A stretch of 59,736 nt of DNA from a virus: positions 1 to 59,736 of IMG/VR virus record IMGVR_UViG_3300019458_000038. One strand, written 5' to 3'. The translations under genes and the position numbers were made by a program. Each line of letters opens with the position of its first letter. The stretch's first letter is position 1. Below the pieces are notes generated by a model. It saw only the letters and a program-made list of their open reading frames with translations, was not told the origin of the DNA and made no database searches. Below are positions 3,523 through 58,200 of this stretch, in pieces.

Positions 3523-3524
3523 CG

Positions 3525-24692: not shown

Positions 24693-24699
24693 GGAACAC

Positions 24700-41127: not shown

Positions 41128-41203
41128 TGGCCGGGGCGCCAGGAGTCGAACCTGGACTGGCCGGGGGTCAAAGCCCCGCGCGCTGCCGTTACGCTACGCC
41201 CCG
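41128..41203 (-). tRNA. tRNA-Gln (TTG)
   Basis: Acceptor CGGGGCG/CGCCCCG, anticodon loop CTTTGAC, canonical T-loop TTCGACT, encoded G-CCA. Last gene of the array in transcription order. Confidence 0.9.
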
Positions 41204-41463
41204 ATAATCTGGTGCAGAGACCGAACCCCGCCTATCTGAACGGCGCACCTGACGTGAGCGCGTCCGCGCTTCCCTCTGGCCCGGACTCGGCTGGAGCACA
41301 TCCTGCACCTCGGCTTCCCGCACAGGTCGCAGCGGCCAACAGTCGCCACCCCGCAGAAGCAGCGGAGCACCCTCCTCCTGGTACGTTCTGGGTGGGATCG
41401 TTGATCAGAAGTCAGGTCAGACCACGACACAGTCCTGTGAGACATCGAAACCTCTCTGGGCAT
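41194..41463 (-). CDS. zinc-finger-like protein, 89 aa
   Basis: Starts MPREVSMSHRTVSW (ATG 41463; ATG 41445 also possible) and carries CFCG, CDLCGKPRCRMC and a basic stretch (RVRARGKRGRAHVRC), a treble-clef or ribbon-type zinc site. Its stop codon lies inside the 5' end of tRNA-Gln. One of several zinc microproteins woven into the tRNA array. Confidence 0.5.
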   Translation of the reverse strand: MPREVSMSHRTVSWSDLTSDQRSHPERTRRRVLRCFCGVATVGRCDLCGKPRCRMCSSRVRARGKRGRAHVRCAVQIGGVRSLHQIIGA

Positions 41464-41473
41464 GGTGGCATAG

Positions 41474-41547
41474 TGGAGAGCCAGGCGGGACTCGAACCCG
41501 CATAGAGCGATTTGCAGTCGCTTGCCTCGCCATTCGGCCACCGGCTC
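41474..41547 (-). tRNA. tRNA-Cys (GCA)
   Basis: Acceptor GAGCCGG/CTGGCTC, loop CTGCAAA, discriminator U73 as expected for cysteine, CCA encoded. Preceded by repeat copy B, 19 nt upstream. Confidence 0.9.
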
Positions 41548-41566
41548 CACCTGCCGTCAACCACGA

Positions 41567-41670
41567 CCCCTCGGTCTATCATCGGCTCGCGCCGACTCCC
41601 CGAGCGGTACGTCCCTTGCCTTGCCTTGCCGGGCCATGCCGCGCCTCGCCGCGCCGCGCCGCGCCGCGCC
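41567..41670 (-). repeat. pentamer-array/hairpin element, copy B
   Basis: Eleven NNGCC pentamers (41616-41670 as read on the plus strand) join the hairpin core (41567-41615): CTCGG/CCGAG outer stem, GTCGGC-GCGA-GCCGAT inner stem with a GNRA loop, and GATAGA on the 3' side. Lies 19 nt upstream of tRNA-Cys. Confidence 0.85.
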
Positions 41671-41831
41671 ACATTTTCCGAAATCCTAGACGACGATCAA
41701 CTCCCCCGTGCCGAACGCACAATCTTCGCAGAGCGGCAAAATCTTCGCCGGAGACCTCCAGAGCGCCGACATGGTCACCAGTCGGACGACCGGCACTCCT
41801 CCGCAGTCAGCACAAAGTGCCTCTGTAGGAG

Positions 41832-41920
41832 TGGCGGAGGCGGCGGGACTCGAACCCGCACGGCCCTCTTCGGGCCTCACGGCGCTTCCAACGCCGCTGC
41901 TTTCCGTTCGCCTCGCCTCC
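41832..41920 (-). tRNA. tRNA-Ser (GGA)
   Basis: Class II with a long variable arm (GGCCC-GAAGA-GGGCC), acceptor GGAGGCG/CGCCTCC, loop TTGGAAG, G73 and CCA encoded. Confidence 0.9.
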
Positions 41921-41924
41921 GAGG

Positions 41925-42016
41925 TGGAGGAAGATTGAGGAGTCGAACCCCTGGCGCTCACCGCGCCCCCATCGCCGCCTTCAAAGCGGCTTGCGGACCG
42001 TCCCGCGGAATCTTCC
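41925..42016 (-). tRNA. tRNA-Ser (TGA)
   Basis: Class II, acceptor GGAAGAT/ATCTTCC, loop TTTGAAG, long variable arm, encoded CCA. Its 5' 59 nt double as the 3' end of the YkuK-like coding sequence. Confidence 0.85.
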
Positions 42017-42470
42017 CCTTGTGTCGGACGACCCAGTCTGCGGAGTGACTGGCCGCCCACGCGTCTGGTTTCACTACGGCCTTGAAACCGTTGCCCATGA
42101 CCATCCCCGCAAGCTCTTGGAGGTACTTGCTTGAAAGATTCTTTTCCTCAGGAGACGCGTCGATGTGGATCGACATCGGGTTCGGCCCGGCCTCCAGGGT
42201 CAGCGCTATCTCGACCGAGCGCCAGACTTCCTTCAGCAGCCTCTCTCGGAGCGAGACGATCCTGGTGACGGCCTCCCTGGAGTAAGAAACGCGCCCCCCC
42301 TTGCCCGGAGTATGGATCACTATGACTGTCACGAACTGGGTCCAGCGTCCGGTCTGTAGCGAGTCGGTACCCACGTGGACCACCTGACCACCGCTGGACG
42401 CCTCGCGGACCCACCGTGCTATGTCTTGGACCGGCTCCCCGCCCAGAGTTTTCCACCGACGTTCTGCCAT
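41958..42470 (-). CDS. DUF458/YkuK RNase-H-like protein, 170 aa
   Basis: Matches the YkuK family: VVHVGTDSLQTGRWTQFVTV (first acidic residue of an RNase-H-like fold), SVEIALTLEAG, IHIDASPEEKNLSSKYLQEL and a final VVKPDAWAASHSADWVVRH. Family activity is unproven. The last 20 codons (from KGKIPRDGPQ to MGAR) are encoded inside the tRNA-Ser(TGA) gene, so the C-terminus is dictated by tRNA sequence. Confidence 0.8.
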   Translation of the reverse strand: MAERRWKTLGGEPVQDIARWVREASSGGQVVHVGTDSLQTGRWTQFVTVIVIHTPGKGGRVSYSREAVTRIVSLRERLLKEVWRSVEIALTLEAGPNPMSIHIDASPEEKNLSSKYLQELAGMVMGNGFKAVVKPDAWAASHSADWVVRHKGKIPRDGPQAALKAAMGAR

Positions 42471-42519
42471 GTCACCACTCTATCATCGAACCCTGCCCAG
42501 AGGCTCTCGGTCCCGTCCG

Positions 42520-42780
42520 TCAGTTTCCGGCTTGTGTGGCCAGCTCGCGGGCGAGCAAGGCGTCCACTCTGGCATCTTCCGCCTTCTCGGCTCTTGTCCT
42601 CTGTCGCCAAGGCTTCAGGCCGCACTTCGGGCACGGTGCGCACAGCCACGGGCGCGGGCAGCCGGGGCCAGGACTCATCCCGGTGCAGACTACGGCCCAC
42701 TCGTCGTAACAGCAGCACTCTGACGGGCTGTCCTTGCGGACTCCGGACCAGCCGCAAGAGCACTTGACCCGGACCTTCAT
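42520..42780 (-). CDS. cysteine-rich zinc-binding protein, 86 aa
   Basis: Begins MKVRVKCSCGWSGVRKDSPS; further Cys at ECCCYDEW, VCTG, GCPRPW and LCAPCPKCG could bind two zinc ions. A charged helical tail (RAEKAEDARVDALLARELAT) follows. ATGA overlap with the RNA ligase stop couples the two. Confidence 0.65.
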   Translation of the reverse strand: MKVRVKCSCGWSGVRKDSPSECCCYDEWAVVCTGMSPGPGCPRPWLCAPCPKCGLKPWRQRTRAEKAEDARVDALLARELATQAGN

Positions 42781-43376
42781 GCCTTGGTCACCCCCAGGAG
42801 GACTCTGTCTGGGGCCGACTTGGGCGAATCGTCCCCGACGAGGGTCTTCTTGAAGTAGACGTTCCCGGCCACGTGGTAGATCACGACCCCCTCGGCCGGC
42901 TTGAACCCGGATGCCGCCTCAGACCCGAGCTCAGCCAGGCAGGCCAGTTCGTCGTCAATCGCGTCCGTGCTGAAGGGACCCCTGTAGAGGATCGGCACGC
43001 TGTAGAGCGGGGGCTTGACGTCGGCCCAGCGGCTCACGTTGAATAGTGCGAAGCGCTTCTCTTTGAGTCCGTAGCCTCTCTGGATCCCAGCCCCGAACCA
43101 CTCCCCGTAGTGTCGTCCCACCCCGAGGGTCTCGCGCAGCAAGGCTTCGTTTTCCTTGACCCACCGGGCGAAGCCGAAGTTGTCGTTCTCGGGGGAGATC
43201 CAGCGGTTCCTGCTCCCGGCCCGGACGGTCCCGTCATGATCTACTGCGACCTGGGCGTTCGTCCCGTCGATCTTCTCGGTTACGACGATCTCCCTCGACA
43301 GCCTCGCGATCTTCGGGAACTCCTCAAAGCCCGAGAACTCGTTGAAGCTAAGTGCGGACCCAGTCTCTTCCGTCAT
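42777..43376 (-). CDS. RNA ligase (Rnl2-like nucleotidyltransferase domain), 199 aa
   Basis: ATG 43376 opens MTEETGSALSFNEFSGFEEF. Motif I is TEKIDGTN with Lys35 as the AMP-accepting residue; motif Ia/III regions are VRAGSRNRWI and YGEWFGAGI; motif IV is PAEGVVIY and motif V VYFKKT. Only the catalytic domain is present, as in short phage ligases. Sitting within the tRNA array, it would suit repair of tRNAs broken by host anticodon nucleases (inference from T4). Confidence 0.8.
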   Translation of the reverse strand: MTEETGSALSFNEFSGFEEFPKIARLSREIVVTEKIDGTNAQVAVDHDGTVRAGSRNRWISPENDNFGFARWVKENEALLRETLGVGRHYGEWFGAGIQRGYGLKEKRFALFNVSRWADVKPPLYSVPILYRGPFSTDAIDDELACLAELGSEAASGFKPAEGVVIYHVAGNVYFKKTLVGDDSPKSAPDRVLLGVTKA

Positions 43377-43401
43377 GGCTATATTCTCTCCCTCGTTAGT
43401 T

Positions 43402-43475
43402 TGGCGGAGAGTGCCGGATTCGAACCGGCCTAGCCAGGGATTCGAATCCCAGCCTTGACCCAAAGCAAACTCTCC
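43402..43475 (-). tRNA. atypical tRNA, predicted anticodon CGA
   Basis: Acceptor GGAGAGT/ACTCTCC, G73-CCA and a perfect T-arm are clear. The anticodon arm is irregular: best fit loop TTCGAAT (anticodon CGA, serine codon UCG) with an A-C closing mismatch and two G-U pairs, on a class I body without the long serine arm. The arm also contains the palindrome GGGATTCGAATCCC. Confidence 0.55.
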
Positions 43476-43502
43476 GTACTTTTGTCTCCAGCTTCTCAGG
43501 TT

Positions 43503-43572
43503 CGGAGGGTCGGGGAATCGAACCCCGTTAGACCGCTTAGCAGGCGACCCGCTGTCCAACTGCGCACCCTCC
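43503..43572 (-). tRNA. tRNA-Ser-like (GCT), short body
   Basis: Acceptor GGAGGGT/ACCCTCC, loop CTGCTAA (GCT), perfect T-arm, but only a 4-nt variable loop and a shortened D-arm. G73 is followed by AAC, so CCA is not encoded. Unlike normal bacterial serine tRNAs. Confidence 0.6.
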
Positions 43573-43579
43573 AGTGTGG

Positions 43580-43861
43580 TCAGAACCGCTCCAGCTTCTC
43601 CACGACCCTGAGCTTGTTGTCCCGAGTCCAGGCGAGGCCCCGCCTCACCGTCTTCGTGATGGCCGAACTGGCGGCGCGCCTGCTACTGAAAAACATATTT
43701 GAGCAGGCTTCACTGCCCATTCCTCTCCACAGGCATCCGTCGATCCCCATGTTGAGGGGATGCCCGCCTTCCTCGACAACGACGTAGTACCTCCAGGAGC
43801 GACACTCGCTCTCTTTTGCCCTCAGGGCTTTACGAACGAGTTTCTGTCTCGCCTTGCTCAT
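43580..43861 (-). CDS. hypothetical basic protein, 93 aa
   Basis: MSKARQKLVRKALRAKESEC opens a basic helix; middle HPLNMGIDGCLWRGMGSEAC; end VRRGLAWTRDNKLRVVEKLE. A roughly 40-bp imperfect direct repeat (43712-43756 and 43879-43917) covers its middle and the 3' end of the upstream gene. Unknown function. Confidence 0.5.
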   Translation of the reverse strand: MSKARQKLVRKALRAKESECRSWRYYVVVEEGGHPLNMGIDGCLWRGMGSEACSNMFFSSRRAASSAITKTVRRGLAWTRDNKLRVVEKLERF

Positions 43862-43863
43862 TA

Positions 43864-44277
43864 TCAACCCCCCTTCGTACTGCCCACTCCTCGGGCATCC
43901 GTCGGTCCCCATGTTGAGTGGAGCGTGTTGCGCCATCTGCGTTTCATGAAGACCTCAACTGGCCGTCCCCAAACTGCGGCCCACGCTAGCGTGTTGGCCG
44001 TACCTCCCGAGAGCCCGTCCCAGAAGGCCGTCACCTTGTCGGCCATCCTGGCTATGACCGAGTTCCTGACCTTCGTGGCGATGTGGCCATACGAAGAGTA
44101 GTCGGGAGTCACCACGACCACCTCCAGGCCCCGCTTCCTGGCTGCATCCTCGGCCGCAGCATCGACTCCGCGAGCCCCTCCCGTGACCACCACCGTCTTG
44201 TCCGGTAGGGAGTCGATGTAGTCCTTCACGAGGTCCAGATACTTGAAGTTCCTCGAACCTACTACTGCCACCTTCAC
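43864..44277 (-). CDS. SLOG-family nucleotide-binding protein (DUF2493/YpsA-type), 137 aa
   Basis: GTG 44277 preceded by GGGGAGGTCGGA is preferred over ATG 44325. The fold is clear: VKVAVVGSRNFKYLDLVKDY, TVVVTGGARGVDAAAEDAAR, VVVVTPDYSSYG, VIARMADKVTAFWDG and SGGTANTLAWA. SLOG proteins sense or process nucleotides and nucleic-acid-derived ligands and appear in several conflict systems. Confidence 0.75.
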   Translation of the reverse strand: MKVAVVGSRNFKYLDLVKDYIDSLPDKTVVVTGGARGVDAAAEDAARKRGLEVVVVTPDYSSYGHIATKVRNSVIARMADKVTAFWDGLSGGTANTLAWAAVWGRPVEVFMKRRWRNTLHSTWGPTDARGVGSTKGG

Positions 44278-44391
44278 TCCGACCTCCCCACCGCTGCTAG
44301 CAGGAGGCCCATCCTTCAGCGCCATCCAGACAGCCTTGCGGTGTAGCCTTCAGAACCAAACTCGACCACGTTTTGTCTCCCTCCCAAACAA

Positions 44392-44480
44392 TGGACCACG
44401 GTCGGGGAGTCGAACCCCGTTCTGGCCCCGATCTGGGGGAGCGGTTATAGGCCGCCCTGAGAACCGTCCTCCCACCGTGG
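44392..44480 (-). tRNA. class II tRNA, anticodon TAT (identity uncertain)
   Basis: Acceptor CCACGGT/ACCGTGG, U73, CCA encoded, long variable arm CCCC-AGATC-GGGG, normal T-loop. Best anticodon stem GGCGG/CCGCT gives loop CCTATAA: C33 and anticodon TAT. A TAT isoleucine tRNA with a class II body would be unusual, so identity is left open. Confidence 0.6.
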
Positions 44481-44487
44481 ATGAAAC

Positions 44488-44561
44488 TGGAAGCCCGCCC
44501 CGGAGTCGAACCGAGATGGTCCGGCATTAGAAGTGCCGGCGGTGTCCACCACCAGCGGGCC
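44488..44561 (-). tRNA. tRNA-Arg (TCT)
   Basis: Acceptor GGCCCGC/GCGGGCT, loop CTTCTAA, U73 and CCA encoded. Reads AGA, a rare codon in this GC-rich genome. Confidence 0.85.
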
Positions 44562-44570
44562 TCCGTCACG

Positions 44571-44680
44571 ACCCCCCGGTCTATCATCGGCGTGCGGCCG
44601 ACTCCCCGAGGGTACGTCCCTTGCCTTCCCGCGCCTCGCCTAGCCCAGCCGGGCCGCGCCGCGCCCCGCCTCGCCGGGCC
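44571..44680 (-). repeat. pentamer-array/hairpin element, copy C
   Basis: Twelve NNGCC-like pentamers plus the hairpin core with inner stem GTCGGC-CGCAC-GCCGAT. Stands 9 nt upstream of tRNA-Arg(TCT). Confidence 0.85.
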
Positions 44681-44694
44681 ACGTTGGATGAAGA

Positions 44695-44769
44695 TGGAGC
44701 CCCACCGGGGAGTCGAACCCCGCTTTGCCGGTTTAGGAAACCGGTTCGCGTCCGCCGCGAATGTGGAGC
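44695..44769 (-). tRNA. tRNA-Arg (CCT)
   Basis: Acceptor GCTCCAC/GTGGGGC, D-stem TCGC/GCGA, loop TTCCTAA, U73 and CCA encoded. Confidence 0.9.
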
Positions 44770-44771
44770 TC

Positions 44772-44845
44772 TGGAAGCCGCGGGCAGAGTCGAACTGCCA
44801 TCTCAGGGTTCGTAGCCCTACGCCTTTCCGTTGGACCACGCGGCT
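44772..44845 (-). tRNA. tRNA-Arg (ACG)
   Basis: Acceptor AGCCGCG/CGCGGCT, loop CTACGAA, CCA encoded. A34 would need the host TadA deaminase to read CGC/CGA. Confidence 0.9.
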
Positions 44846-44848
44846 TTG

Positions 44849-44924
44849 TGGACCCCGAGGCGGGACTCGAACCCGCATCTCCAGTTACGGCGTCAGGTTT
44901 CGGAGACCTGGCCGGTACTCGGGG
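44849..44924 (-). tRNA. tRNA-Arg-like (CCG), apparently without a D-arm
   Basis: Acceptor CCCCGAG/CTCGGGG, T-arm GCGGG/CCCGC, U73 and CCA are perfect. The only good anticodon hairpin is CAGGT-CTCCGAA-ACCTG, leaving just 7 nt where the D-arm should be and 17 nt in the variable region. A forced normal layout gives a poor stem. Total length is a normal 76 nt. Confidence 0.55.
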
Positions 44925-45075
44925 AATCGTCCGGATCCGATCCTGACTCTTCGATTATGGCTCTGATTTCCGACCGGGGGCCTTTCCAGCACAACTCCTT
45001 CGCGATCTCAGTGACGGAGTAGCCCCTGTGGTAGAGGTCCAGCACAACGTCTGCCCGAGTGACGTGTTTCCCCAT
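44893..45075 (-). CDS. small HTH-like protein, 60 aa
   Basis: MGKHVTRADVVLDLYHRGYS followed by VTEIAKELCWKGPRSEIRAI looks like a helix-turn-helix of the type that ends small phage regulators. The last residues (about 10) are encoded inside the adjacent tRNA-Arg-like gene. Start ATG 45075. Possible local regulator. Confidence 0.5.
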   Translation of the reverse strand: MGKHVTRADVVLDLYHRGYSVTEIAKELCWKGPRSEIRAIIEESGSDPDDSPSTGQVSET

Positions 45076-45087
45076 CAGAGAGAGTCC

Positions 45088-45261
45088 CTAGACCTTCCGG
45101 CGCTTCCGCTTCGAAGCAGAAACGTTGGCTCTTCGGGCAGCCCTGCGGGCGGCCCACCCGTGGCCCGCTTTAGGACCGCTGCGGCGGTGAAGCTCGCGGA
45201 CGATGCGGAGTTCGCGCTTGCGCTTCTTTCCCTTCCTCTTGTGTGCCCACGCCATCTGCAT
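45088..45261 (-). CDS. very basic small protein, 57 aa
   Basis: MQMAWAHKRKGKKRKRELRI and later RRAARRANVSASKRKRRKV: Lys/Arg-rich throughout, likely RNA- or DNA-binding. ATG 45255 has better spacing to the CAGGAGAG site; 45261 is also possible. It lies between tRNA-Glu and the HTH-like gene. Confidence 0.5.
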   Translation of the reverse strand: MQMAWAHKRKGKKRKRELRIVRELHRRSGPKAGHGWAARRAARRANVSASKRKRRKV

Positions 45262-45272
45262 GCTCTCCTGTT

Positions 45273-45346
45273 TGGTGGGGTCGGCGGGAGTCGAACCCGC
45301 ATCAACTGCGTGAAAGGCAGCCCGCCTACCGTTAGCATACGACCCC
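45273..45346 (-). tRNA. tRNA-Glu (TTC)
   Basis: Acceptor GGGGTCG/CGACCCC, loop CTTTCAC, A73 and CCA encoded. Confidence 0.9.
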
Positions 45347-45351
45347 GTTTC

Positions 45352-45423
45352 TGGAGCCACCCCGGGGAGTCGAACCCCGCTGGCTGAAGATACAAACCTC
45401 CGCCGGTCCCGTGACCGGGTGGC
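45352..45423 (-). tRNA. tRNA-Thr (TGT)
   Basis: Acceptor GCCACCC/GGGTGGC, loop TTTGTAT, U73, CCA encoded; D-stem GGTC/GACC with a short loop. Confidence 0.8.
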
Positions 45424-45443
45424 GTCTTGTCCCCCTTGAGAAG

Positions 45444-45747
45444 TGGTGGAGGCGGCGGGAGTCGAACCCGCGTCCCGACACGAACGACGCGACGAGTTGC
45501 ACAGGCTTGTGTGCGTCAGTTGGCCGTGAGCGTCACCCCTTCACGGCGTTGGGGTACTGGTCCTCGCCGTCGTGACGCCGCTCCAGGCACTAGCGAGGGA
45601 GGAACCTGGGCGACGAGGCCGCCTAGGCGGCCTGCGGCAGAGCGTAGTCTGCGCTTGAGGTTTCCGGTCGAGATTTAGGAGGGAGACTCGGAGCCCCTCC
45701 GCCTGCACGTCACGCCGAAGCGCCCCGGTCGATACCGTTGCGCCCCC
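45444..45747 (-). ncRNA. ssrA: transfer-messenger RNA (tmRNA)
   Basis: The 5' end reads GGGGGCGCAACGGTATCGAC and pairs with CGCCTCC-A-CCA at the 3' end; T-arm GCGGG-TTCGACT-CCCGC follows a GACGCG run typical of tmRNA 3' ends. The tag frame is readable at 45652-45623: ADYALPQAA then TAG, extending the usual ...YALAA proteolysis signal. At 304 nt it is somewhat shorter than typical bacterial tmRNA. It would rescue stalled ribosomes and tag products. Confidence 0.9.
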
Positions 45748-45751
45748 GTAG

Positions 45752-45827
45752 TGGTGCCCCCCCCCGGTGTCGCACCGGGCCCTCTTCGTCTTCAGCGAAG
45801 CGCTTCCACTGGGTTAGCTTGAGGAGC
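45752..45827 (-). tRNA. tRNA-Phe (GAA)
   Basis: Anticodon arm CTTCG-CTGAAGA-CGAAG, D-stem GCT/AGC, A73-CCA encoded. The acceptor 3' strand lies in a run of eight G (minus strand), one fewer than a perfect 7-bp acceptor needs; the T-loop is TGCGACA. Confidence 0.8.
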
Positions 45828-45837
45828 ACTGCGGACT

Positions 45838-46150
45838 TCAGTTCTGGATCGCCTCCTGTCCGGCCTTGGCGATCTGTTCGAGGACCCACAGTTTGCGGCG
45901 CGGTGAGCGGGACGCCCACACTGGGAGATGTGAAGAAGCGCACCATTCTGGGTTGCTCGGCCTCGGTGGGCCGGGCCTTCTCCACGACCCCGAGCACGTA
46001 CTTGAACTCATCACCCGAAATTTTGCGATCGAACCACAGTACCTGGGCTCGGGTACACAAGTAAATGAGTGGGCTGCTACTCAGCAGCGTCGCCCACACG
46101 TCCATCTTCCGGTAGGCGTCGAGCTGCTGCTTGGTCACTTGGGCGTTCAC
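45838..46150 (-). pseudogene. frameshifted small gene
   Basis: GTG 46150 overlaps the upstream stop (GTGA) and has AAGGAGGG. The frame VNAQVTKQQLDAYRKMDVWA ... VRFFTSPSVGVPLT is protein-like, then degenerates into the tRNA and tmRNA genes (open to 45710). A +1 shift near 45905 gives RRKLWVLEQIAKAGQEAIQN and a stop at 45838-45840, a sensible C-terminus. Either a sequence error, a real mutation or a +1 frameshift site. Family unknown. Confidence 0.5.
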
Positions 46151-46341
46151 CACTTCGTGGCCCTCCTTCTCGCGTCCCAGCCTTCGTTCCACGCCTGCCG
46201 TCTGATCTCGTCAAGAGCGGTGATGACCTCCGCACACCACTGGCACACCGGCGCCTGAGAGCCTACCGGGCAGGTACAGCTCGTCCCCCCAAAGCGGCCG
46301 ATGAAGCTCGTGTCCCCGTTGGCCCTCTCGCAGTTACTCAT
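46147..46341 (-). CDS. small Cys-containing protein, 64 aa
   Basis: MSNCERANGDTSFIGRFGGT, then CTCPVGSQAPVCQWCAEVI, a four-Cys zinc knot, and a basic helical end (RRQAWNEGWDARRRATKW). Its stop overlaps the next start. Zinc-type microprotein, unknown role. Confidence 0.6.
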   Translation of the reverse strand: MSNCERANGDTSFIGRFGGTSCTCPVGSQAPVCQWCAEVITALDEIRRQAWNEGWDARRRATKW

Positions 46342-46360
46342 TCCTCCCCCCTCTCGCGTT

Positions 46361-46711
46361 TCAGTCCTGATATTCCGTCAAGGAATACCGCTCGGCGGAG
46401 CTCAGCTTCTTTGCCGGGACGAACCCGATCGTCCTGGTCCTGTTGTCGGTCTTCAGGACCCACGCCAACTCCTGCATGTCCTGGAGGGAGGGCTGCGCGC
46501 TGTCTCTGTAAGCGTTGCAGCTGGTGACCTTGAACCTGATCCGGTCCCCACCGCCGGACAGCCGGTCCCCACCGCCGGACAGAGCGCCGCACTCGATGAT
46601 CTCTTCGTCGAGAGCTTGGCCCCGGATAATCGTCGCCCTCTTGCACGAGAGGCAGAGCGACTTCTCGTCGGAAGACGCGGTGCCACCAAAGACTTTGATA
46701 CTGATCGACAC
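46361..46711 (-). CDS. hypothetical protein with tandem repeat, 116 aa
   Basis: GTG 46711 has AGGAGCTAA upstream. Contains CLSCKRATII and a 21-bp perfect tandem repeat (46541-46561, 46562-46582) encoding LSGGGDR twice. End VLKTDNRTRTIGFVPAKKLS. Unknown family; the repeat suggests slippage. Confidence 0.6.
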   Translation of the reverse strand: MSISIKVFGGTASSDEKSLCLSCKRATIIRGQALDEEIIECGALSGGGDRLSGGGDRIRFKVTSCNAYRDSAQPSLQDMQELAWVLKTDNRTRTIGFVPAKKLSSAERYSLTEYQD

Positions 46712-46726
46712 TTAGCTCCTATTTTG

Positions 46727-46799
46727 TGGAGCCGGCCCGGGGAGTCGAACCCACGCCCTGCTGCTTACGGGGCAGTTTGGCCACCTCGGCCTGACCGGC
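46727..46799 (-). tRNA. tRNA-Thr (CGT), C33 variant
   Basis: Acceptor GCCGGTC/GGCCGGC, loop CCCGTAA gives C33 and anticodon CGT; U73 and CCA encoded. T-stem has two mismatches at the outer end. Confidence 0.75.
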
Positions 46800-46802
46800 G
46801 GT

Positions 46803-46876
46803 TGGTCCACGGAGCGAGAATCGAACTCACATTGCGCGGTTATCGGCCGCGCGTCCTACCTTTGGACGATCCGTGG
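46803..46876 (-). tRNA. tRNA-Ile (GAT), C33 variant
   Basis: Acceptor CCACGGA/TCCGTGG, D-stem GTCC/GGAC, perfect anticodon stem CGCGG/CCGCG with loop CCGATAA (C33), A73 and CCA encoded. Confidence 0.9.
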
Positions 46877-46884
46877 AATCCGTA

Positions 46885-46960
46885 TGGTGGGACCGGTCGG
46901 AATCGAACCGACGTTGTTCCGCTTAAAAGGCGGGCGCAACCCATCTTTTGCTACGGTCCC
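46885..46960 (-). tRNA. tRNA-Lys (TTT)
   Basis: Acceptor GGGACCG/CGGTCCC, loop CTTTTAA, A73 and CCA encoded. Repeat copy D stands 12 nt upstream. Confidence 0.9.
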
Positions 46961-46972
46961 CCGAATTTCCGA

Positions 46973-47071
46973 CCCCCCGGTCTATCATCGGAGTGCGGCC
47001 GACTCCCCGAAGGTACGTCCCTTGCCGTGCCGCGCCTTGCCGAGCTACGCCGAGCCGCGCCCCGCCCCGCC
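46973..47071 (-). repeat. pentamer-array/hairpin element, copy D
   Basis: Ten NNGCC-like pentamers (47022-47071) and the hairpin core with inner stem GTCGG/CCGAT and loop CCGCACT. Upstream of tRNA-Lys(TTT). Confidence 0.85.
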
Positions 47072-47098
47072 ACGGTACGATTGAAAACCTCTGGCAGT

Positions 47099-47172
47099 TG
47101 GCTGGGGGCGGCGGACTCGAACCGCCATGACGCCGGTAACAGCGGCGCATCCTACCATTGAATGATCCCCCA
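47099..47172 (-). tRNA. tRNA-Asn (GTT)
   Basis: Acceptor TGGGGGA/GCCCCCA, loop CTGTTAC, G73 and CCA encoded; last acceptor pair is A-G. Confidence 0.9.
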
Positions 47173-47175
47173 GTT

Positions 47176-47251
47176 TGGCTGCGGCGGAGGGAGTCGAACC
47201 CCCATTGACGTCGGTTCAGAGCCGACCGCACTTCCGTTGTGCTACACCGCA
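47176..47251 (-). tRNA. tRNA-Gln (CTG)
   Basis: Acceptor TGCGGTG/CGCCGCA, loop CTCTGAA, G73 and CCA encoded. Confidence 0.9.
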
Positions 47252-47502
47252 GTAAGGTGTGCGGTTTCTACACGCTGGCCGAGAACTCAGGAGAATGATT
47301 CCTGCACCTCCGGGAGATTCTCACTCCCGCAGGCCATACGTACCGCACGAGGTCGTCTCACTTCATTGACCTAGGAATGAAGCAGGGCGGGGCCGCGGTC
47401 CGGATCCTCGCGCCCTTTGACTGGTAAAGCGCTCCCCGTGTTCGCAGCTTTCAGTCTGGAGCCACCCGCCACGGCTCCACCGCTCAGTGCGTCGTTGGTT
47501 AT
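47252..47502 (-). other. gene-free structured stretch in the tRNA array
   Basis: No ORF or standard tRNA (no TTCGA T-loop). Minus strand shows many helices in series: GGAGCC/GGCTCC, GACTG...AAAGC with GCTTT...CAGTC, AGGGCG/CGCCCT, CTTCATT/AATGAAG, and a cloverleaf-like unit at 47259-47348 closed by GTGCGGT/ACCGCAC with arms GGGAG/CTCCC and CAGGA/TCCTG. Could be a structured ncRNA or decayed tRNAs. Confidence 0.4.
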
Positions 47503-47577
47503 TGGTCGGGCCCACGAGACTCGAACTCGCATTTCCTCGGCCCCCAGCCGAGTGCTCTGCCGTTGAGCTAAGGCCCG
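47503..47577 (-). tRNA. tRNA-Pro (GGG)
   Basis: Acceptor CGGGCCT/GGGCCCG (C1-G72 as in proline tRNAs), D-stem GCTC/GAGC, loop CTGGGGG, A73-CCA encoded. Confidence 0.9.
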
Positions 47578-47578
47578 A

Positions 47579-47652
47579 TGGTCGGGGACAGGAGAGTCGA
47601 ACTCCCGCGACGGCGTTCCAAACGCCGGATGCTTCCGTTACATCAATCCCCG
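47579..47652 (-). tRNA. tRNA-Pro (TGG)
   Basis: Acceptor CGGGGAT/GTCCCCG, loop TTTGGAA, A73-CCA encoded. Confidence 0.9.
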
Positions 47653-47669
47653 GATGCAGACTGAGATTT

Positions 47670-47743
47670 TGGTTGGAGAGGAGGGAGTCGGACCCTCGCC
47701 ACCGGCTTCCGACGCCGGGATGCTACCGTAACACTTCTCCCCA
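47670..47743 (-). tRNA. tRNA-Pro (CGG)
   Basis: Acceptor TGGGGAG/CTCTCCA, anticodon stem CCGGC/GCCGG, loop GTCGGAA, A73-CCA encoded; T-loop TCCGACT. Confidence 0.85.
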
Positions 47744-47744
47744 A

Positions 47745-47818
47745 TGGAGGGTCGCTGGGGACTCGAACCCCACCCGGCAGGGACACAACCTGCCATGCTT
47801 CCTCAACACTCGCGACCC
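47745..47818 (-). tRNA. tRNA-His (GTG)
   Basis: Acceptor GGGTCGC/GCGACCC, loop TTGTGTC, CCA encoded. No G-1 opposite a C73 is apparent (U73), so the usual histidine identity element is not obvious. Confidence 0.85.
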
Positions 47819-47822
47819 AGCG

Positions 47823-47848
47823 GCCCGGAGGCTTGACCATCTCCGGGC
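47823..47848 (-). terminator. strong hairpin between tRNA-Val and tRNA-His
   Basis: GCCCGGAG/CTCCGGGC around a 10-nt loop, no U-run. Possibly a processing or partial termination signal inside the array. The stretch 47849-47974 beside it holds no gene I can support. Confidence 0.35.
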
Positions 47849-47974
47849 TCCTCGTGGCTAATCGGGTGTCGACCCCCGACGTCTCGGCCACAGAGCAGCC
47901 GGCGAGCAGAACGCCGCGCTTGGCATCGCGACGCCTCCGGCCTGCCCTCCGGCTTCTCTCTGACCGAGTTGTGG

Positions 47975-48048
47975 TGGTAGCCGGTGAGGGAATCGAACCC
48001 CCATGAGCGGTTTGTAGGACCGCCGTCCTTCCTTTGAACGAACCGGCT
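47975..48048 (-). tRNA. tRNA-Val (TAC), C33 variant
   Basis: Acceptor AGCCGGT/ACCGGCT, D-stem GTCC-like arm, perfect stem GCGGT/ACCGC with loop CCTACAA (C33), A73-CCA encoded. Confidence 0.9.
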
Positions 48049-48051
48049 CGT

Positions 48052-48129
48052 TGGTCGCAGGGGTGGGATTCGAACCCTACTAGCGCCAGGCTTATGAGAC
48101 CTGCGTTCCTACCAAGGAACTTCCCTGCG
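48052..48129 (-). tRNA. tRNA-Met (CAT)
   Basis: Acceptor CGCAGGG/CCCTGCG, long D-stem GTTCC/GGAAC, loop CTCATAA, A73-CCA encoded. C1 pairs with G72, so not a typical bacterial initiator; could also be a lysidine-type isoleucine tRNA. Confidence 0.8.
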
Positions 48130-48130
48130 A

Positions 48131-48212
48131 TGGGAGCGGACCCGGGAGTCGAACCCGGTATCTTCAGCTTATGAGGCTGACGTGGTTTATGTGTCCGTGC
48201 CCACTCGTCCGC
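48131..48212 (-). tRNA. tRNA-Met-like (CAT), long D-loop
   Basis: Anticodon arm TCAGC-CTCATAA-GCTGA and T-arm CCGGG/CCCGG are perfect. The acceptor gives 6 clean pairs (GCGGAC/GTCCGC), and the D-arm GTGG/CCAC has a 15-nt loop. CCA is encoded after UC. Initiator, elongator or Ile2 cannot be decided. Confidence 0.7.
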
Positions 48213-48215
48213 GTC

Positions 48216-48289
48216 TGGTACCGCCGCCGAGGATCGAACTCGGACCACCGCCTTGAGAGGACGGTCGCCTTCCATTAGCGTACGGCGGC
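48216..48289 (-). tRNA. tRNA-Glu (CTC)
   Basis: Acceptor GCCGCCG/CGGCGGT with G1-U72, D-stem CGC/GCG, loop CTCTCAA, A73-CCA encoded. Confidence 0.85.
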
Positions 48290-48513
48290 TTAGAAAGCCG
48301 GGGCCCTCACCCGGCGGTTGCGACAGGCGGCGGCAGGTAAGCGTTGGGGGTTTCTCACTCCCCGCGGCAGCTCTCTCCGCCCAGGTCTCGGGTCCGGCTG
48401 CGAACGCGACCTCCACCTCGCAGGAGTGGAGAAAGGAGCGGCGGCCTCCTGGCGGGAATTGCGCACCTGCCTTGGAGCCGCACCGGCCAGGTCGCTCGGC
48501 CGCGGTGAAGAAA
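48290..48513 (-). other. gene-free structured stretch between tRNA-Ala and tRNA-Glu
   Basis: No convincing ORF or tRNA. Minus-strand hairpins include CTCCAC/GTGGAG, GCGGGG-AGTGAGAAA-CCCCC and GCCGGG/CCCGGC followed by TTTCT, which resembles a terminator. The loop GAGTGAGAA is shared with the structured stretch at 47.3 kb. Confidence 0.35.
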
Positions 48514-48588
48514 TGGTGGACAGCCGGAGATTCAAACTCCGTCCTAGTGGGTGCAAACCACTCGTGCTCTCGTTAACACTAGCCGCCC
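48514..48588 (-). tRNA. tRNA-Ala (TGC)
   Basis: Acceptor GGGCGGC/GCTGTCC with two G-U pairs, loop TTTGCAC, A73-CCA encoded; T-loop TTTGAAT. Confidence 0.85.
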
Positions 48589-48607
48589 AGTACAGTCGGT
48601 ACCACTT

Positions 48608-48686
48608 TGGCGGGGACGACGGGACTCGAACCCGCGCCCTCTGCGCTGACAACGCAGTGATCCTAGCCCGCAGGATCTACGTCCCC
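48608..48686 (-). tRNA. tRNA-Asp (GTC)
   Basis: Acceptor GGGGACG/CGTCCCC, extended D-stem GATCC/GGATC, loop TTGTCAG, G73-CCA encoded. Confidence 0.9.
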
Positions 48687-48693
48687 TCCAGAG

Positions 48694-48769
48694 TGGTCCA
48701 TCCCCAGGGATTCGAACCCTGATCTCACGGGATTGAGCCGTGCGCGTCTGCCATTTGCGCCAGGGATGG
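48694..48769 (-). tRNA. tRNA-Leu (CAA), short variable loop
   Basis: Acceptor CCATCCC/GGGATGG, leucine-like D-loop (AAATGGCAGA), stem CACGG/CCGTG with loop CTCAATC, A73-CCA. The variable loop is only 4-5 nt instead of the long class II arm. Confidence 0.8.
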
Positions 48770-48771
48770 TA

Positions 48772-48848
48772 TGGTCGCCGCCGTGGGAGTCGAACCCACG
48801 CTTGACCCGTGTTTAAGACGGGGCCTCTGCCATCTGGGCTAGGCGGCG
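48772..48848 (-). tRNA. tRNA-Leu (TAA), short variable loop
   Basis: Acceptor CGCCGCC/GGCGGCG, D-loop with GATGGCAGA, stem CCCGT/ACGGG with loop CTTAAAC, A73-CCA; variable loop about 6 nt. Confidence 0.8.
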
Positions 48849-48850
48849 AG

Positions 48851-48928
48851 TGGTGCGCGGAGTGGGAGTCGAACCCACAGACCACTGCTTCTAAGGCAGT
48901 GAGGTTTGCCAGTTACCGTCACCCGCGC
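48851..48928 (-). tRNA. tRNA-Leu (TAG), short variable loop
   Basis: Acceptor GCGCGGG/TCCGCGC, D-loop with ACTGGCAA, stem ACTGC/GCAGT with loop CTTAGAA, A73-CCA; variable loop GGTCT. The 138 nt upstream (48929-49066) hold no supported gene. Confidence 0.8.
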
Positions 48929-49066
48929 GCGTCTTAGTTAACAGCGAGCGCCGGACCAACAGCCCCAGGAAGTCGAAGGCCAGCTCGCCGTTCGTCTCAA
49001 TTAACTCCTGCCCTTCCGTTTAAAGGTGTAGCGCCGTGGGTCCGGTACAGCGCCCTCGACTTTTAA

Positions 49067-49327
49067 CTAGCGACAGCCCCGCTCTTCTCTGGCGTCGGAC
49101 CTGCCCGACTCCTCGTACAACCACTTCTTTAGGTACACGTGGACCGGGTGTCCCGTCTTGCGGCGGTGCTCCCTGGCGGCCGCGGACACGATGTCCCTGT
49201 CTCTGGAGTACGACGCGTACTCCCTGTCCGGGTGTTTGTCCCTGGTCAGCCAGCAGTATGCACACTCGTACACGTACTCGTCGTATAGGCTCTCGAGGTC
49301 CATGTCCTTCGTCGGGTCCATTCTCAT
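49067..49327 (-). CDS. charged CxxC protein, 86 aa
   Basis: ATG 49327; MRMDPTKDMDLESLYDEYVY, then ECAYCWLTRDKHPDREYASY, SAAAREHRRKTGHPVHVY and a basic end. CxxC with nearby His could bind zinc. Sits between leucine tRNAs. Unknown family. Confidence 0.55.
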   Translation of the reverse strand: MRMDPTKDMDLESLYDEYVYECAYCWLTRDKHPDREYASYSRDRDIVSAAAREHRRKTGHPVHVYLKKWLYEESGRSDAREERGCR

Positions 49328-49343
49328 CTCTCGTTTCTGAATT

Positions 49344-49422
49344 TGGTCCCCAGGGGGCGACTCGAACGCCCACCTTCGCCGGGTCTGAGCCGACGCTCTC
49401 TGCCTGATTGGAGTACCTGGGG
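49344..49422 (-). tRNA. tRNA-Leu (CAG), short variable loop
   Basis: Acceptor CCCCAGG/CCTGGGG, D-stem CTC/GAG with leucine-like loop, stem GTCGG/CCGGC with loop CTCAGAC, A73-CCA; 6-nt variable loop. Confidence 0.8.
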
Positions 49423-49424
49423 GA

Positions 49425-49501
49425 TGGTCTGCCCGGGGGGACTCGAACCCCTATTAGCCTGGCTTCTCGGACCAGGGTGTCTGCCATTCCACCACGAGCA
49501 G
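49425..49501 (-). tRNA. tRNA-Leu (GAG), C33 and short variable loop
   Basis: Acceptor CTGCTCG/CGGGCAG, stem CTGGT/GCCAG with loop CCGAGAA (C33), A73-CCA; variable loop about 6 nt. Confidence 0.8.
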
Positions 49502-49502
49502 A

Positions 49503-49578
49503 TGGTCCACCGCCGGGGGCTCGAACCCCGACCTCTCGCGTTAAGAGCGCGACGTGCTGCCGCTAGCACCTGCGGTGG
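49503..49578 (-). tRNA. tRNA-Lys (CTT)
   Basis: Acceptor CCACCGC/GCGGTGG, D-stem GTGC/GCAC, loop CTCTTAA, A73-CCA encoded. Confidence 0.9.
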
Positions 49579-49583
49579 TTTAG

Positions 49584-49657
49584 TGGAGCTCTCACCGGGT
49601 CCTGCCCCGGACTTTCGCCTTACCAAGGCGACGGTCTGCTGTTGATCCTACGAGAGC
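49584..49657 (-). tRNA. tRNA-Thr (GGT), unusual T-loop
   Basis: Acceptor GCTCTCG/TGAGAGC, perfect stem TCGCC/GGCGA with loop TTGGTAA, U73-CCA. The T-arm reads CCGGG-GCAGGA-CCCGG and lacks the TTCGA motif. The 95 nt upstream (49658-49752) contain two palindromic hairpins but no gene. Confidence 0.75.
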
Positions 49658-49752
49658 GAGTAGCCAGCGGCACTCGCCCTAGGACGAGCCCGCACCTGCG
49701 CGCGGTTCCTGGCCCGGGCCAGGCGCCTCTCAGCCCTGCTGGATGGGCTGCT

Positions 49753-49827
49753 TGGAGCGACGCCGGGGAGTCGAACCCCGCGTTCCCAGTTTGGAAGACT
49801 GGAGCCTTACCGCCCGGCCCGCGTCGC
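49753..49827 (-). tRNA. tRNA-Gly (TCC)
   Basis: Acceptor GCGACGC/GCGTCGC, D-stem GCC/GGC, loop CTTCCAA, U73-CCA encoded. Confidence 0.9.
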
Positions 49828-49833
49828 ATTAGT

Positions 49834-49926
49834 TGGTGGGCGCCGCAGGGATCGAACCTGCCGTGATCCCCCATCAGGGGGCGCCTGGTTTACAGCCAGG
49901 TGGGACTCCTTTGTCCCGTGACGCCC
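49834..49926 (-). tRNA. tRNA-Tyr (GTA)
   Basis: Class II: acceptor GGGCGTC/GGCGCCC, stem CCTGG/CCAGG with loop CTGTAAA, long variable arm CCCCC-TGAT-GGGGG, A73-CCA. Confidence 0.9.
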
Positions 49927-50056
49927 TTGAGCAGCGCTCCACACTAGCGCCGCCTTTTCTTCTTCGCTCAGTTTTCAAAGATGTCCCCCGGCCACGCCTG
50001 GTGCCGGCTCCAGCTTCCGGCCGGCTCTCGGCAGATTCAATACCGCCGAGCCACGA

Positions 50057-50168
50057 CCCCTCGGTCTATCATCGGCCGCGCCGACTCCCCGAAGGTACGT
50101 CCCTTGCCTTGCCGGGCCATGCCTCGCCTAGCCACGCCTCGCCCCGCCCCGCCTGGCTCTGCCTCGCT
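50057..50168 (-). repeat. pentamer-array/hairpin element, copy E
   Basis: About thirteen NNGCC-like pentamers (50104-50168) and the hairpin core; the inner loop is one base shorter than in copies B and H. The core lies 130 nt upstream of tRNA-Tyr and the array 22 nt downstream of tRNA-Trp. The rest of the gap (49927-50056) holds no gene I can support. Confidence 0.85.
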
Positions 50169-50189
50169 ACGCGATTGAGTCTTTCCAGT

Positions 50190-50263
50190 TGGCGGGGGAC
50201 CTGGGGGTCGAACCCAGACTGAGGGATTTGGAGGCCCTCCGGCTGCCGTTACCTCAGCCCCCC
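50190..50263 (-). tRNA. tRNA-Trp (CCA)
   Basis: First tRNA after the array promoter. Acceptor GGGGGGC/GTCCCCC, loop CTCCAAA (closing pair C-U mismatched), G73 and CCA encoded. Confidence 0.85.
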
Positions 50264-50443: not shown

Positions 50444-50989
50444 CTAGAAGACTATCCCGTGGTGGTAGAGGAGTTCGGCCCAGGACGCGACCCGGACCCC
50501 GTCGCGGCATTCTCGGTTCCAGGAACGGTCGAAGAGGTAGGCGGTCTTCCCGGCGGCGCAGATGTCCGAGACGTTGTTCGGCATGTCGTCGACGTACCAG
50601 TCGCACTCGACGTTGGCCTTGTTGGCACCCTGGCCTAGGACGTGGACTTCCTTCGCCGGGATCTTGTGGTATGACAGCCAGTCCAGGGTGTCGACCCTGG
50701 CCGAGTCCGGCCTGGTCGTGATAATGACCAAGTTGTGGCCCTTCCTGTCCAGCGTCCGCAGCGCCTCGATGCTCCCCCGGTAGAGGTTCCCGTGGCGGAA
50801 GAGTCCGAGCTTCACGCCCTCAGTCCACAGCCACTCCCAGTGGACCGCGTGTACGGAGTCCTTTATGTGGTTCCACCTCGTGGTCACGTCGAGGGAGTAG
50901 CCGAAGCTGTGCGACAGCAGGAACTTCGCGGAAGAATCCCAGTCGTAGCAGACCCCGTCGAGGTCGATCCCGGCCCGTTTCCGGCTCAT
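50444..50989 (-). CDS. HAD-family 5'(3')-nucleotidase-like phosphatase, 181 aa
   Basis: MSRKRAGIDLDGVCYDWDSS gives the DxDG nucleophile motif (Asp9, Asp11); NLVIITTRPDSA is motif II; the C-terminus has VECDWYVDDMPNNVSDI, motif IV. Cap region in between. Fits the NT5C-like deoxyribonucleotidases of phages, which balance nucleotide pools. ATGA overlap with the next upstream gene. Confidence 0.8.
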   Translation of the reverse strand: MSRKRAGIDLDGVCYDWDSSAKFLLSHSFGYSLDVTTRWNHIKDSVHAVHWEWLWTEGVKLGLFRHGNLYRGSIEALRTLDRKGHNLVIITTRPDSARVDTLDWLSYHKIPAKEVHVLGQGANKANVECDWYVDDMPNNVSDICAAGKTAYLFDRSWNRECRDGVRVASWAELLYHHGIVF

Positions 50990-51310: not shown

Positions 51311-51430
51311 CCCTCGGTCAATAATCAGTCCCGCGTCGGACCGACTCCCCGAGGGTACGTCCCTTGCCTTGCCGTGCCGTGCCGTGCCGTGCCTCGCCGC
51401 GCCGTGCCTCGCCACGCCGTGCACTGCCGC
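51311..51430 (-). repeat. pentamer-array/hairpin element, copy F
   Basis: About thirteen NNGCC-like pentamers (51364-51429) plus a diverged core: outer CTCGG/CCGAG kept, inner stem changed around GTCGGTCCGAC. It is followed upstream by CCGCGGTTACGAAA, also found beside copy G. Confidence 0.75.
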
Positions 51431-53016: not shown

Positions 53017-53045
53017 ATACTCTCTCTCTCTCTCTCAAATCCATA

Positions 53046-58197: not shown

Positions 58198-58200
58198 GGA

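Follow-up and report, generated by a model that had tools for sequence, protein, structure and literature searches.

What would a phage gain from an array of tRNA genes spanning all 20 amino acids, and are these genes genuine? The window analyzed here is a 59,736-nucleotide stretch of a viral record (IMGVR_UViG_3300019458_000038). The array that it contains is genuine. With default settings, ARAGORN detected 33 tRNAs and a tmRNA at positions 41128-50263, on the minus strand throughout. At the 95% threshold, 37 tRNAs accounting for all 20 amino acids were obtained, with no match beyond the array (false-match rate of 1 in 20 shuffles). At 90%, 38 array tRNAs were obtained and the remaining 50.5 kb gave 4 matches (about 0.45 false matches per shuffled array). 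Matches gained at 80% were mostly false and were set aside. The features are as follows.

41128-41203, minus: tRNA-Gln(UUG) (ARAGORN default, Rfam)
41474-41547, minus: tRNA-Cys(GCA) (ARAGORN default, Rfam)
41832-41920, minus: tRNA-Ser(GGA), long variable arm (ARAGORN default, Rfam)
41925-42016, minus: tRNA-Ser(UGA), long variable arm, U73 (ARAGORN default)
41958-42470, minus: RNase H-like protein, PF04308 (Pfam 1.5e-28)
42777-43376, minus: RNA ligase, PF09414/phrog_548, 199 aa (Pfam profile 7.9e-18)
43402-43475, minus: tRNA of ambiguous anticodon (Ser-CGA or Arg-UCG by eye), short variable arm, 6-nt loop (ARAGORN default)
43502-43573, minus: tRNA-Ser(GCU)-like, short variable arm, no CCA (ARAGORN default, Rfam)
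43864-44325, minus: SLOG/YspA-like protein (Pfam PF10686)
44392-44480, minus: tRNA-Ile(UAU) with extra hairpin CCCC-CAGATC-GGGG (ARAGORN default, alignment, model 50.5 bits)
44488-44561, minus: tRNA-Arg(UCU) (ARAGORN default)
44695-44769, minus: tRNA-Arg(CCU) (ARAGORN default)
44772-44845, minus: tRNA-Arg(ACG) (ARAGORN default, Rfam)
44849-44924, minus: tRNA-Arg(CCG) (ARAGORN 90%)
45273-45346, minus: tRNA-Glu(UUC) (ARAGORN default, Rfam)
45352-45426, minus: tRNA-Thr(UGU) (ARAGORN 90%)
45444-45747, minus: tmRNA, tag ADYALPQAA, G3-U70 (ARAGORN, RF00023 86.4 bits)
45752-45827, minus: tRNA-Phe(GAA), unusual T-loop (ARAGORN 90-95%; five-arm covariance model 30 bits)
46727-46799, minus: tRNA-Thr(CGU), C33 (ARAGORN 90%)
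46803-46876, minus: tRNA-Ile(GAU), C33 (ARAGORN default, Rfam)
46885-46960, minus: tRNA-Lys(UUU) (ARAGORN default, Rfam)
47099-47172, minus: tRNA-Asn(GUU) (ARAGORN default, Rfam)
47176-47251, minus: tRNA-Gln(CUG) (ARAGORN default, Rfam)
47503-47577, minus: tRNA-Pro(GGG) (ARAGORN default, Rfam)
47579-47652, minus: tRNA-Pro(UGG) (ARAGORN default)
47670-47743, minus: tRNA-Pro(CGG) (ARAGORN default, Rfam)
47745-47818, minus: tRNA-His(GUG), no G-1:C73 (ARAGORN default)
47975-48048, minus: tRNA-Val(UAC), C33 (ARAGORN default, Rfam)
48052-48129, minus: tRNA-Met(CAU), C1-G72 paired (ARAGORN default)
48133-48212, minus: second tRNA-Met(CAU), CCA out of register (ARAGORN 90%)
48216-48289, minus: tRNA-Glu(CUC) (ARAGORN default, Rfam)
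48514-48588, minus: tRNA-Ala(UGC), G3-U70 (ARAGORN default, Rfam)
48608-48686, minus: tRNA-Asp(GUC) (ARAGORN default, Rfam)
48694-48769, minus: tRNA-Leu(CAA), short variable arm (ARAGORN default)
48772-48848, minus: tRNA-Leu(UAA), short variable arm (ARAGORN default, Rfam)
48851-48928, minus: tRNA-Leu(UAG), short variable arm (ARAGORN default, Rfam)
49344-49422, minus: tRNA-Leu(CAG), short variable arm (ARAGORN default)
49425-49501, minus: tRNA-Leu(GAG), short variable arm, C33 (ARAGORN default, Rfam)
49503-49578, minus: tRNA-Lys(CUU) (ARAGORN default)
49753-49827, minus: tRNA-Gly(UCC) (ARAGORN default, Rfam)
49834-49926, minus: tRNA-Tyr(GUA), long variable arm (ARAGORN default)
50190-50263, minus: tRNA-Trp(CCA) (ARAGORN default, Rfam tRNA model at E<=10)
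50444-50989, minus: 5'(3')-deoxyribonucleotidase-like protein (NT5C), flanking the array (Pfam PF06941)

Twenty-one of the array tRNAs exceeded the Rfam gathering score. The sequence-only reading had counted 39 tRNA or tRNA-like genes, a figure that corresponds to the 38 tRNAs plus the tmRNA, or plus one doubtful gene. Its other structural claims were borne out: the genes lie on one strand, an in-register CCA is encoded by 36 of the 38 (the exceptions being Ser-GCU and the second Met), all 20 isotypes are present by anticodon, although some identities are uncertain, and the tmRNA and RNA-related proteins, including an RNA ligase inside the cluster, are interspersed. Phe is the weakest call: its T-loop is TGCGACA, and the gene was not recovered with the Rfam tRNA model, even at E<=10. 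The 38 tRNAs carry 37 distinct anticodons, CAU being the only one repeated. Another assembly of this phage, a 76,323-base IMG/VR contig (L009/G001), confirmed the array and is 99.9% identical to the window (21 differing alignment columns over 20.6 kb); one base differs in the tRNA at 43402-43475. No further tRNAs were found in the additional 16 kb of this contig.

The tmRNA score was well above the RF00023 gathering score of 47 bits, and direct reading of its acceptor stem (GGGGGCG / CGCCTCC) showed that the G3-U70 pair specifying alanine charging is kept. The tag ends in PQAA rather than the usual LAA, which concerns the fate of the tag, not the identity of the tmRNA. The RNA ligase is 56% identical to that of Caulobacter phage CcrSC. 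Of the phage proteins that were scanned, none was recognized as an aminoacyl-tRNA synthetase.

Complete phage tRNA clusters have already been published, and the array alone is one further case. Phage clusters of 15 to 37 tRNAs, eight of them with all 20 isotypes, have been described (Morgado and Vicente, 2019; PMC6409571). The present array resembles them in being dense, on one strand, complete by anticodon and interspersed with small genes; with 38 tRNAs spread over 9.1 kb, a density of about 4.2 per kb, it lies above the at least 15 tRNAs and at least 2 per kb that delimit such clusters. It differs in its 37 anticodons, compared to a survey maximum of 34 codons, and in belonging to an unrelated uncultured phage. 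Mycobacteriophages of subcluster C1 (Bixzunavirus, Bxz1-like) also combine about 30 tRNAs and a tmRNA in one region, although Iota, the member examined, lacks Leu, Ser, and Asn tRNAs. The array gave no nucleotide match to C1 phages, and the MCP matches other phages. Kinship with C1 (Ceeclamvirinae/Bixzunavirus) through TerL was rejected: the match (residues 505-775) covers a LAGLIDADG domain, likely an intein, and is therefore not evidence of kinship. A capsid search of GTDB, aimed at the host, returned one weak match (33%), to a Planctomycetales MAG, where it fell on a short contig.

Anticodons were compared with phage codon use; the sequence-only reading had called for such a comparison with the late genes. 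At 64% GC, AGG still represents 45% of Arg codons and AUA 22% of Ile codons, and both have dedicated tRNAs. In contrast, eight codons (ACY, GUY, GCY, and GGY), amounting to 17.3% of phage codons, are uncovered under ordinary wobble, the tRNAs of the Ala, Val, Thr, and Gly boxes being mismatched to the preferred C-ending codons. Neither Met tRNA has the initiator-type 1-72 mismatch, indicating that initiation still depends on the host. SerRS requires the long variable arm of tRNA-Ser, which is missing from Ser-GCU and from the putative Ser-CGA.

The tRNA-Ile(UAU) of the array led to a wider family. At least 78 viral tRNA-Ile(UAU) genes have an extra hairpin located 3' of the anticodon arm and 5' of the variable loop. 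Such five-arm tRNAs also occur in cultured phages of E. coli, Acinetobacter, Pectobacterium, and Lactobacillus; in some of the E. coli phages the gene is unannotated. Among contigs fetched for other reasons, the long extra arm was present in 10 of 28 viral Ile-UAU genes. The motif [CT][AT]GAT was found inside the arm in all ten (9/9 if L307, possibly fetched through its own CTGATAA loop, is excluded), compared to 6 of the 258 remaining viral tRNAs with a long arm. GAU is the isoleucine anticodon. In an unbiased sample of 70 tRNA-like matches, obtained with a pattern that left the hairpin unconstrained, GAU occupied positions 3-5 of the extra loop in 62 cases by script, and in about 67 after five mis-picked hairpins had been read; GAC replaces it in Lactobacillus phage 3-521 and at locus L546. 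The extra stem covaries strongly, with 97.6% of cells paired, double changes at all four pairs, and a covariation of 0.767, compared to 0.132 ± 0.031 for shuffled and at most 0.152 for slid alignments. A73 is present in 58/58 aligned members; U33 is kept in the first anticodon loop, and the equivalent position of the second loop is usually A. In single-sequence folding by RNAfold, all five arms formed in the tRNA of PCEc3, an E. coli phage, but not in the window copy or in those of Acinetobacter qsb1, L307, and L353, so the case for five arms rests on covariation rather than folding energy. No five-arm tRNA was found when a single phage copy was used as blastn query against 5,426 E. coli genomes, nor in 119 Planctomycetota genomes, a set holding no positive control.

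The window copy has the UAU anticodon and a hairpin at the same place, and GAU is present in its 6-nt extra loop. It departs from the family by C33 in the first anticodon loop and by U73, and its covariance model score falls below the 59 to 96 bits of members (outlier L416, 51.7) and among the scores of ordinary tRNAs, which reach 57.5. It is probably a divergent relative, and was not counted as a member.

We tentatively propose, as a reading slightly less likely than not, that two anticodon arms coexist in one phage tRNA-Ile, of which the window array holds a divergent copy. As judged from the wider family, the UAU arm would decode AUA on the ribosome and the GAU loop of the second arm would be accepted by the host isoleucyl-tRNA synthetase for charging, the two roles of the anticodon thereby being divided between hairpins. 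A second GAU loop would suit the host enzyme because typical bacterial sets use GAU or lysidine-modified CAU, without UAU, an anticodon that prokaryotes are said to have lost (PMC8007984). Several observations speak against this proposal: the commonest second loop, CAGAUUA, lacks A37, t6A37 being an isoleucine determinant (PMC9976931); 18 of the 28 Ile-UAU genes on contigs fetched for other reasons have no extra arm; GAC replaces GAU in the two cases named above; and the window copy is divergent. It is very unlikely that the hairpin is a class II variable arm directing charging by LeuRS or TyrRS, with AUA recoded. The long arm and A73 fit substrates of these enzymes in outline, and class II tRNAs (Leu, Ser, Tyr) also have a hairpin 3' of the anticodon arm, but the phage hairpin has a 7-nt loop with a near-invariant GAU and typically lies between a linker of 4-6 nt on its 5' side and a separate variable loop on its 3' side; the motif occurs in only 2 of 211 Leu, Ser, or Tyr arms. 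Removal of the hairpin as a small intron or processing signal, leaving an ordinary tRNA, is unlikely: the hairpin does adjoin the anticodon arm and some phages with the five-arm tRNA may have RNA ligases, yet neither GAU at anticodon positions nor the usual replacement of U33 by A would be explained. In known solutions, one tRNA likewise reconciles AUA decoding with isoleucylation, but the lysidine-bearing tRNA-Ile(CAU) and the tRNA-Ile(UAU) found in Mycoplasma and lactobacilli are ordinary tRNAs that depend on base modification or on an IleRS adapted to them, unlike the phage type with its second GAU hairpin.

For the locus as a whole, we consider it somewhat probable that the phage carries in this array a substitute pool of tRNAs, in which the tRNA-Ile(UAU) with a second anticodon-like hairpin serves AUA. 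The pool would sustain elongation whenever the tRNAs of the host run short, are cleaved, or suit phage codons poorly, with the tmRNA rescuing stalled ribosomes and an RNA ligase at hand, and would leave initiation and charging to the host. The partial independence from host tRNAs that had been suggested stands in part. The non-redundant, near-complete set, the tmRNA, and the RNA ligase fit it; the uncovered codons, the lack of an initiator and of any synthetase seen, and the short-armed Ser tRNAs do not. A role in defence is plausible: phages are known to be rescued by their own tRNAs when host defences cut tRNAs (PMC11555353, PMC13096335; a prediction in PMC10264068). The T5 and T6 tRNA-Tyr sustain translation under cutting by retron-Eco7 or Septu (PMC11555353, PMC13096335), the T5 tRNA having an altered variable region; they differ in being single, functionally tested tRNAs.

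Evasion of such cutting as the main driver, with resistance conferred by anticodon-loop changes and lost variable arms, is possible but doubtful. It would account for C33 in five array tRNAs, for the missing long variable arm in all five tRNA-Leu, and for the RNA ligase; the enrichment in C33 is mild against 49 of 1498 viral tRNAs outside Ile, and short-armed tRNA-Leu is common in phages (60/132) and may have other causes. We found no report of class I phage tRNA-Leu in the mostly open-access literature searched. We give similar, limited credence to codon supply alone, in which the tRNAs would match a phage codon use unlike that of the host (AGG, AUA, GGG, and others), with no link to defence. 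Heavy AGG and AUA use makes this motive as good as a substitute pool, and E. coli phages pair the five-arm tRNA-Ile with tRNA-Arg. As far as its record shows, phage ESCO41 has only tRNA-Arg(UCU) and the five-arm tRNA-Ile(UAU), and it over-uses exactly those codons: AUA 3 times, and AGA plus AGG among Arg codons about 9 times, as much as an E. coli K-12 stretch. However, a patch for rare codons would not require as many as 37 anticodons, some of which serve the commonest codons, the mismatched boxes do not fit, and the codon-compensation signal is absent in C1 mycobacteriophages (PMC10264068). Neutral accretion of tRNA genes is improbable. Degenerate-looking members (Ser-GCU without CCA, the second Met) would be expected from it, but the 38 genes are nearly free of redundancy, discriminators and G3-U70 are mostly retained, and redundant arrays are known in other phages.

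The array thus adds one phage with a near-complete tRNA set. No report of a tRNA with a double anticodon arm was found in the literature searched, mostly open-access, and the five-arm tRNA-Ile, if confirmed, would be an apparently unreported tRNA architecture. Its occurrence in cultured E. coli phages opens the mechanism to laboratory test. If the proposal is correct, it would provide a clean natural case of separate anticodons for ribosome and synthetase, which suggests a possible handle for tRNA engineering, and would explain how phages decode AUA without the lysidine enzyme of the host.

The sequence-only reading had described a one-strand tRNA array with anticodons for every standard amino acid, a tmRNA, and RNA-related proteins amid the tRNA genes, and each of these elements was confirmed. 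In the window, which is the whole linear IMG/VR record of 59,736 bases (G000), ARAGORN detected at its default threshold 33 tRNAs and the tmRNA at 41128-50263, all on the minus strand. At 95% of the threshold, 37 array tRNAs were obtained with no match elsewhere in the window; at 90%, 38 were obtained, together with four matches in the remaining 50.5 kb. Shuffled array controls gave no match, one match per 20 shuffles, and about 0.45 match per shuffle, respectively. Rfam placed 21 tRNAs and the tmRNA above the gathering score. All 20 amino acids are represented by anticodon, the weakest call being tRNA-Phe (T-loop TGCGACA), which had no match in the Rfam search. A 76-kb contig of the same phage (L009/G001, 99.9% identity) contains no additional tRNA in its extra 16 kb. 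The array belongs to an already known kind. In both assemblies, a frame overlapping tRNA-Phe (45710-46192) contains an apparent frameshift near its 3' end. The tmRNA (45444-45747) encodes the tag ADYALPQAA, which ends in PQAA instead of LAA, and protease targeting may therefore differ.

Genes for an RNA ligase, an RNase H-like protein, and a SLOG protein lie inside the array, and a gene for an NT5C-like nucleotidase adjoins it. The nearest named relatives of the ligase are found in Caulobacter jumbo phages, and the capsid protein is far from every named phage. Kinship with the C1 mycobacteriophages through the large terminase subunit (12536-15001) was rejected since the match spans a LAGLIDADG domain (residues 638-701), indicating a shared element, likely an intein, rather than common descent. 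Elsewhere in the window, inside the structural region, genes for a methyltransferase and a radical SAM/SPASM protein lie beside a gene weakly matching a glycosyltransferase (23290-25724). At 55799-59262, a TET-associated glycosyltransferase gene (TAGT, 57298-58197) has two ParB-like genes nearby, suggestive of base modification in the DNA. An interspersed repeat of about 105 nt consists of runs of GGCNN pentamers followed by a conserved core, AAGGGACGTACC.TCGGGGAGTCGG...CCGATGATAGACCG, and four of its copies sit between tRNA genes:

41564-41668, minus strand, repeat copy
44569-44673, minus strand, repeat copy
46970-47074, minus strand, repeat copy
50052-50156, minus strand, repeat copy
51312-51416, minus strand, repeat copy
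53044-53148, minus strand, repeat copy
about 3522-3616, plus strand, repeat copy

With ordinary wobble, the 37 anticodons read 53 of the 61 codons. Reading the eight others (ACY, GUY, GCY, and GGY), which account for 17.3% of 15,006 phage codons in genes called by a simple GC-position rule rather than a trained gene finder, requires a U34 that pairs with all four bases. By the same gene calls, AGG accounts for 45% of the codons for Arg and AUA for 22% of those for Ile; the array has tRNAs for both. CAU is the only duplicated anticodon; as read from the sequence, both Met tRNAs lack initiator features, and that at 48052-48129 has a C1-G72 pair.

All five tRNA-Leu of the array have a short variable arm. 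Among viral contigs L010-L352, short-armed (class I) genes accounted for 60 of 132 distinct tRNA-Leu versus 2 of 104 tRNA-Ser, and may be related to nucleases cutting variable arms. C33 is present in five array tRNAs (Ile-GAU, Ile-UAU, Val, Thr-CGU, and Leu-GAG). It also replaces U33 in the tRNA-Ile(GAU) of XacN1, CcrSC, and Hena1, as in that of the window (46803-46876), the four phages being apparently unrelated. C33 and the short Leu arms would fit published ideas on evasion of tRNA cutting (PMC10264068, PMC13096335).

One array gene has an unusual architecture:

44392-44480, minus strand, tRNA-Ile(UAU) with an extra hairpin between the anticodon arm and the variable loop

Among viral contigs gathered for other reasons, 10 of 28 Ile-UAU genes had this extra arm. 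The motif [CT][AT]GAT was present in the arm of 10/10 long-armed Ile-UAU genes (9/9 without L307, a contig possibly sampled via its own loop) versus 6/258 long arms of other tRNAs. A first targeted scan brought the number of distinct long-armed Ile-UAU genes to at least 78; it fixed the extra-loop sequence and is therefore circular as evidence of loop conservation. A second scan, constraining the first anticodon loop and the T-loop alone and leaving the extra hairpin free, gave 70 tRNA-like matches, part of them from contigs already sampled. According to a script selecting the hairpin solely by stem pairing, 62 of the 70 had GAU at positions 3-5 of a loop of 7 nt; the number rose to 67 after non-blind manual reading of the eight exceptions, in five of which the script had taken the wrong hairpin. 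The flanking positions vary (CAGATTA, CAGATAA, TAGATAA, TAGATGA, TAGATTG, and others). GAC replaces GAU in Lactobacillus phage 3-521 (L473) and contig L546.

In 53 aligned sequences, including the window copy and mostly from the loop-fixed scan, which left the stem unconstrained, the extra stem was 97.6% paired, with two-sided changes at all four pairs. The covariation score was 0.767; shuffled controls gave 0.132 +/- 0.031, and sliding the partners yielded no more than 0.152. A73 was present in 58/58 members of an alignment without the window copy. A covariance model from which the window was left out scored accepted members at 59-96 bits, except L416 (51.7 bits), and ordinary tRNAs at no more than 57.5 bits. 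The five-arm tRNA-Ile is well supported as a structure by sequence comparison, and is apparently unreported in the literature searched. Acceptor and anticodon-stem sequence is common to the window copy and the Ile-GAU gene of the array; the extra loop of the window copy reads CAGATC. With C33, U73, and its model score, this copy falls outside the family as delimited here and is probably a divergent relative.

Cultured phages with a five-arm tRNA-Ile include PCEc3, Opt-719, and ESCO41 (E. coli, Drexlerviridae-type), qsb1 (Acinetobacter), Wc4 (Pectobacterium), and LpeD, Lpa804, and ENFP1 (Lactobacillus/Levilactobacillus). In ESCO41 and Opt-719, the gene is unannotated and adjoins an annotated tRNA-Arg. 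ESCO41 uses 9.5 AUA per thousand codons, versus 3.2 in a 50-kb K-12 stretch, and AGA plus AGG for 29.7% of Arg, versus 3.4%.

The UAU anticodon is generally absent from prokaryotes; their AUA decoding relies on tRNA-Ile(CAU), in which a modified C34 sets both codon and amino-acid identity (PMC8007984, PMC11938285). Charging of the five-arm tRNA via its second loop, which we infer from the sequences, must be weighed against the lack of A37, a known determinant (PMC9976931), in the commonest second loop, and against the many phage Ile-UAU genes devoid of the extra arm. According to a title cited in PMC9976931, an IleRS recognizing UAU has been reported for lactic acid bacteria; there, the need for GAU would relax, and 3-521 has GAC, although LpeD and Lpa804 retain GAU. 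The architecture, with its covariation and near-invariant GAU, is present in an AUA-rich phage. Under second-loop charging, the five-arm tRNA would divide codon reading and amino-acid identity between two loops, the first, UAU with U33, serving the ribosome, and the second, GAU usually without U33, serving IleRS.
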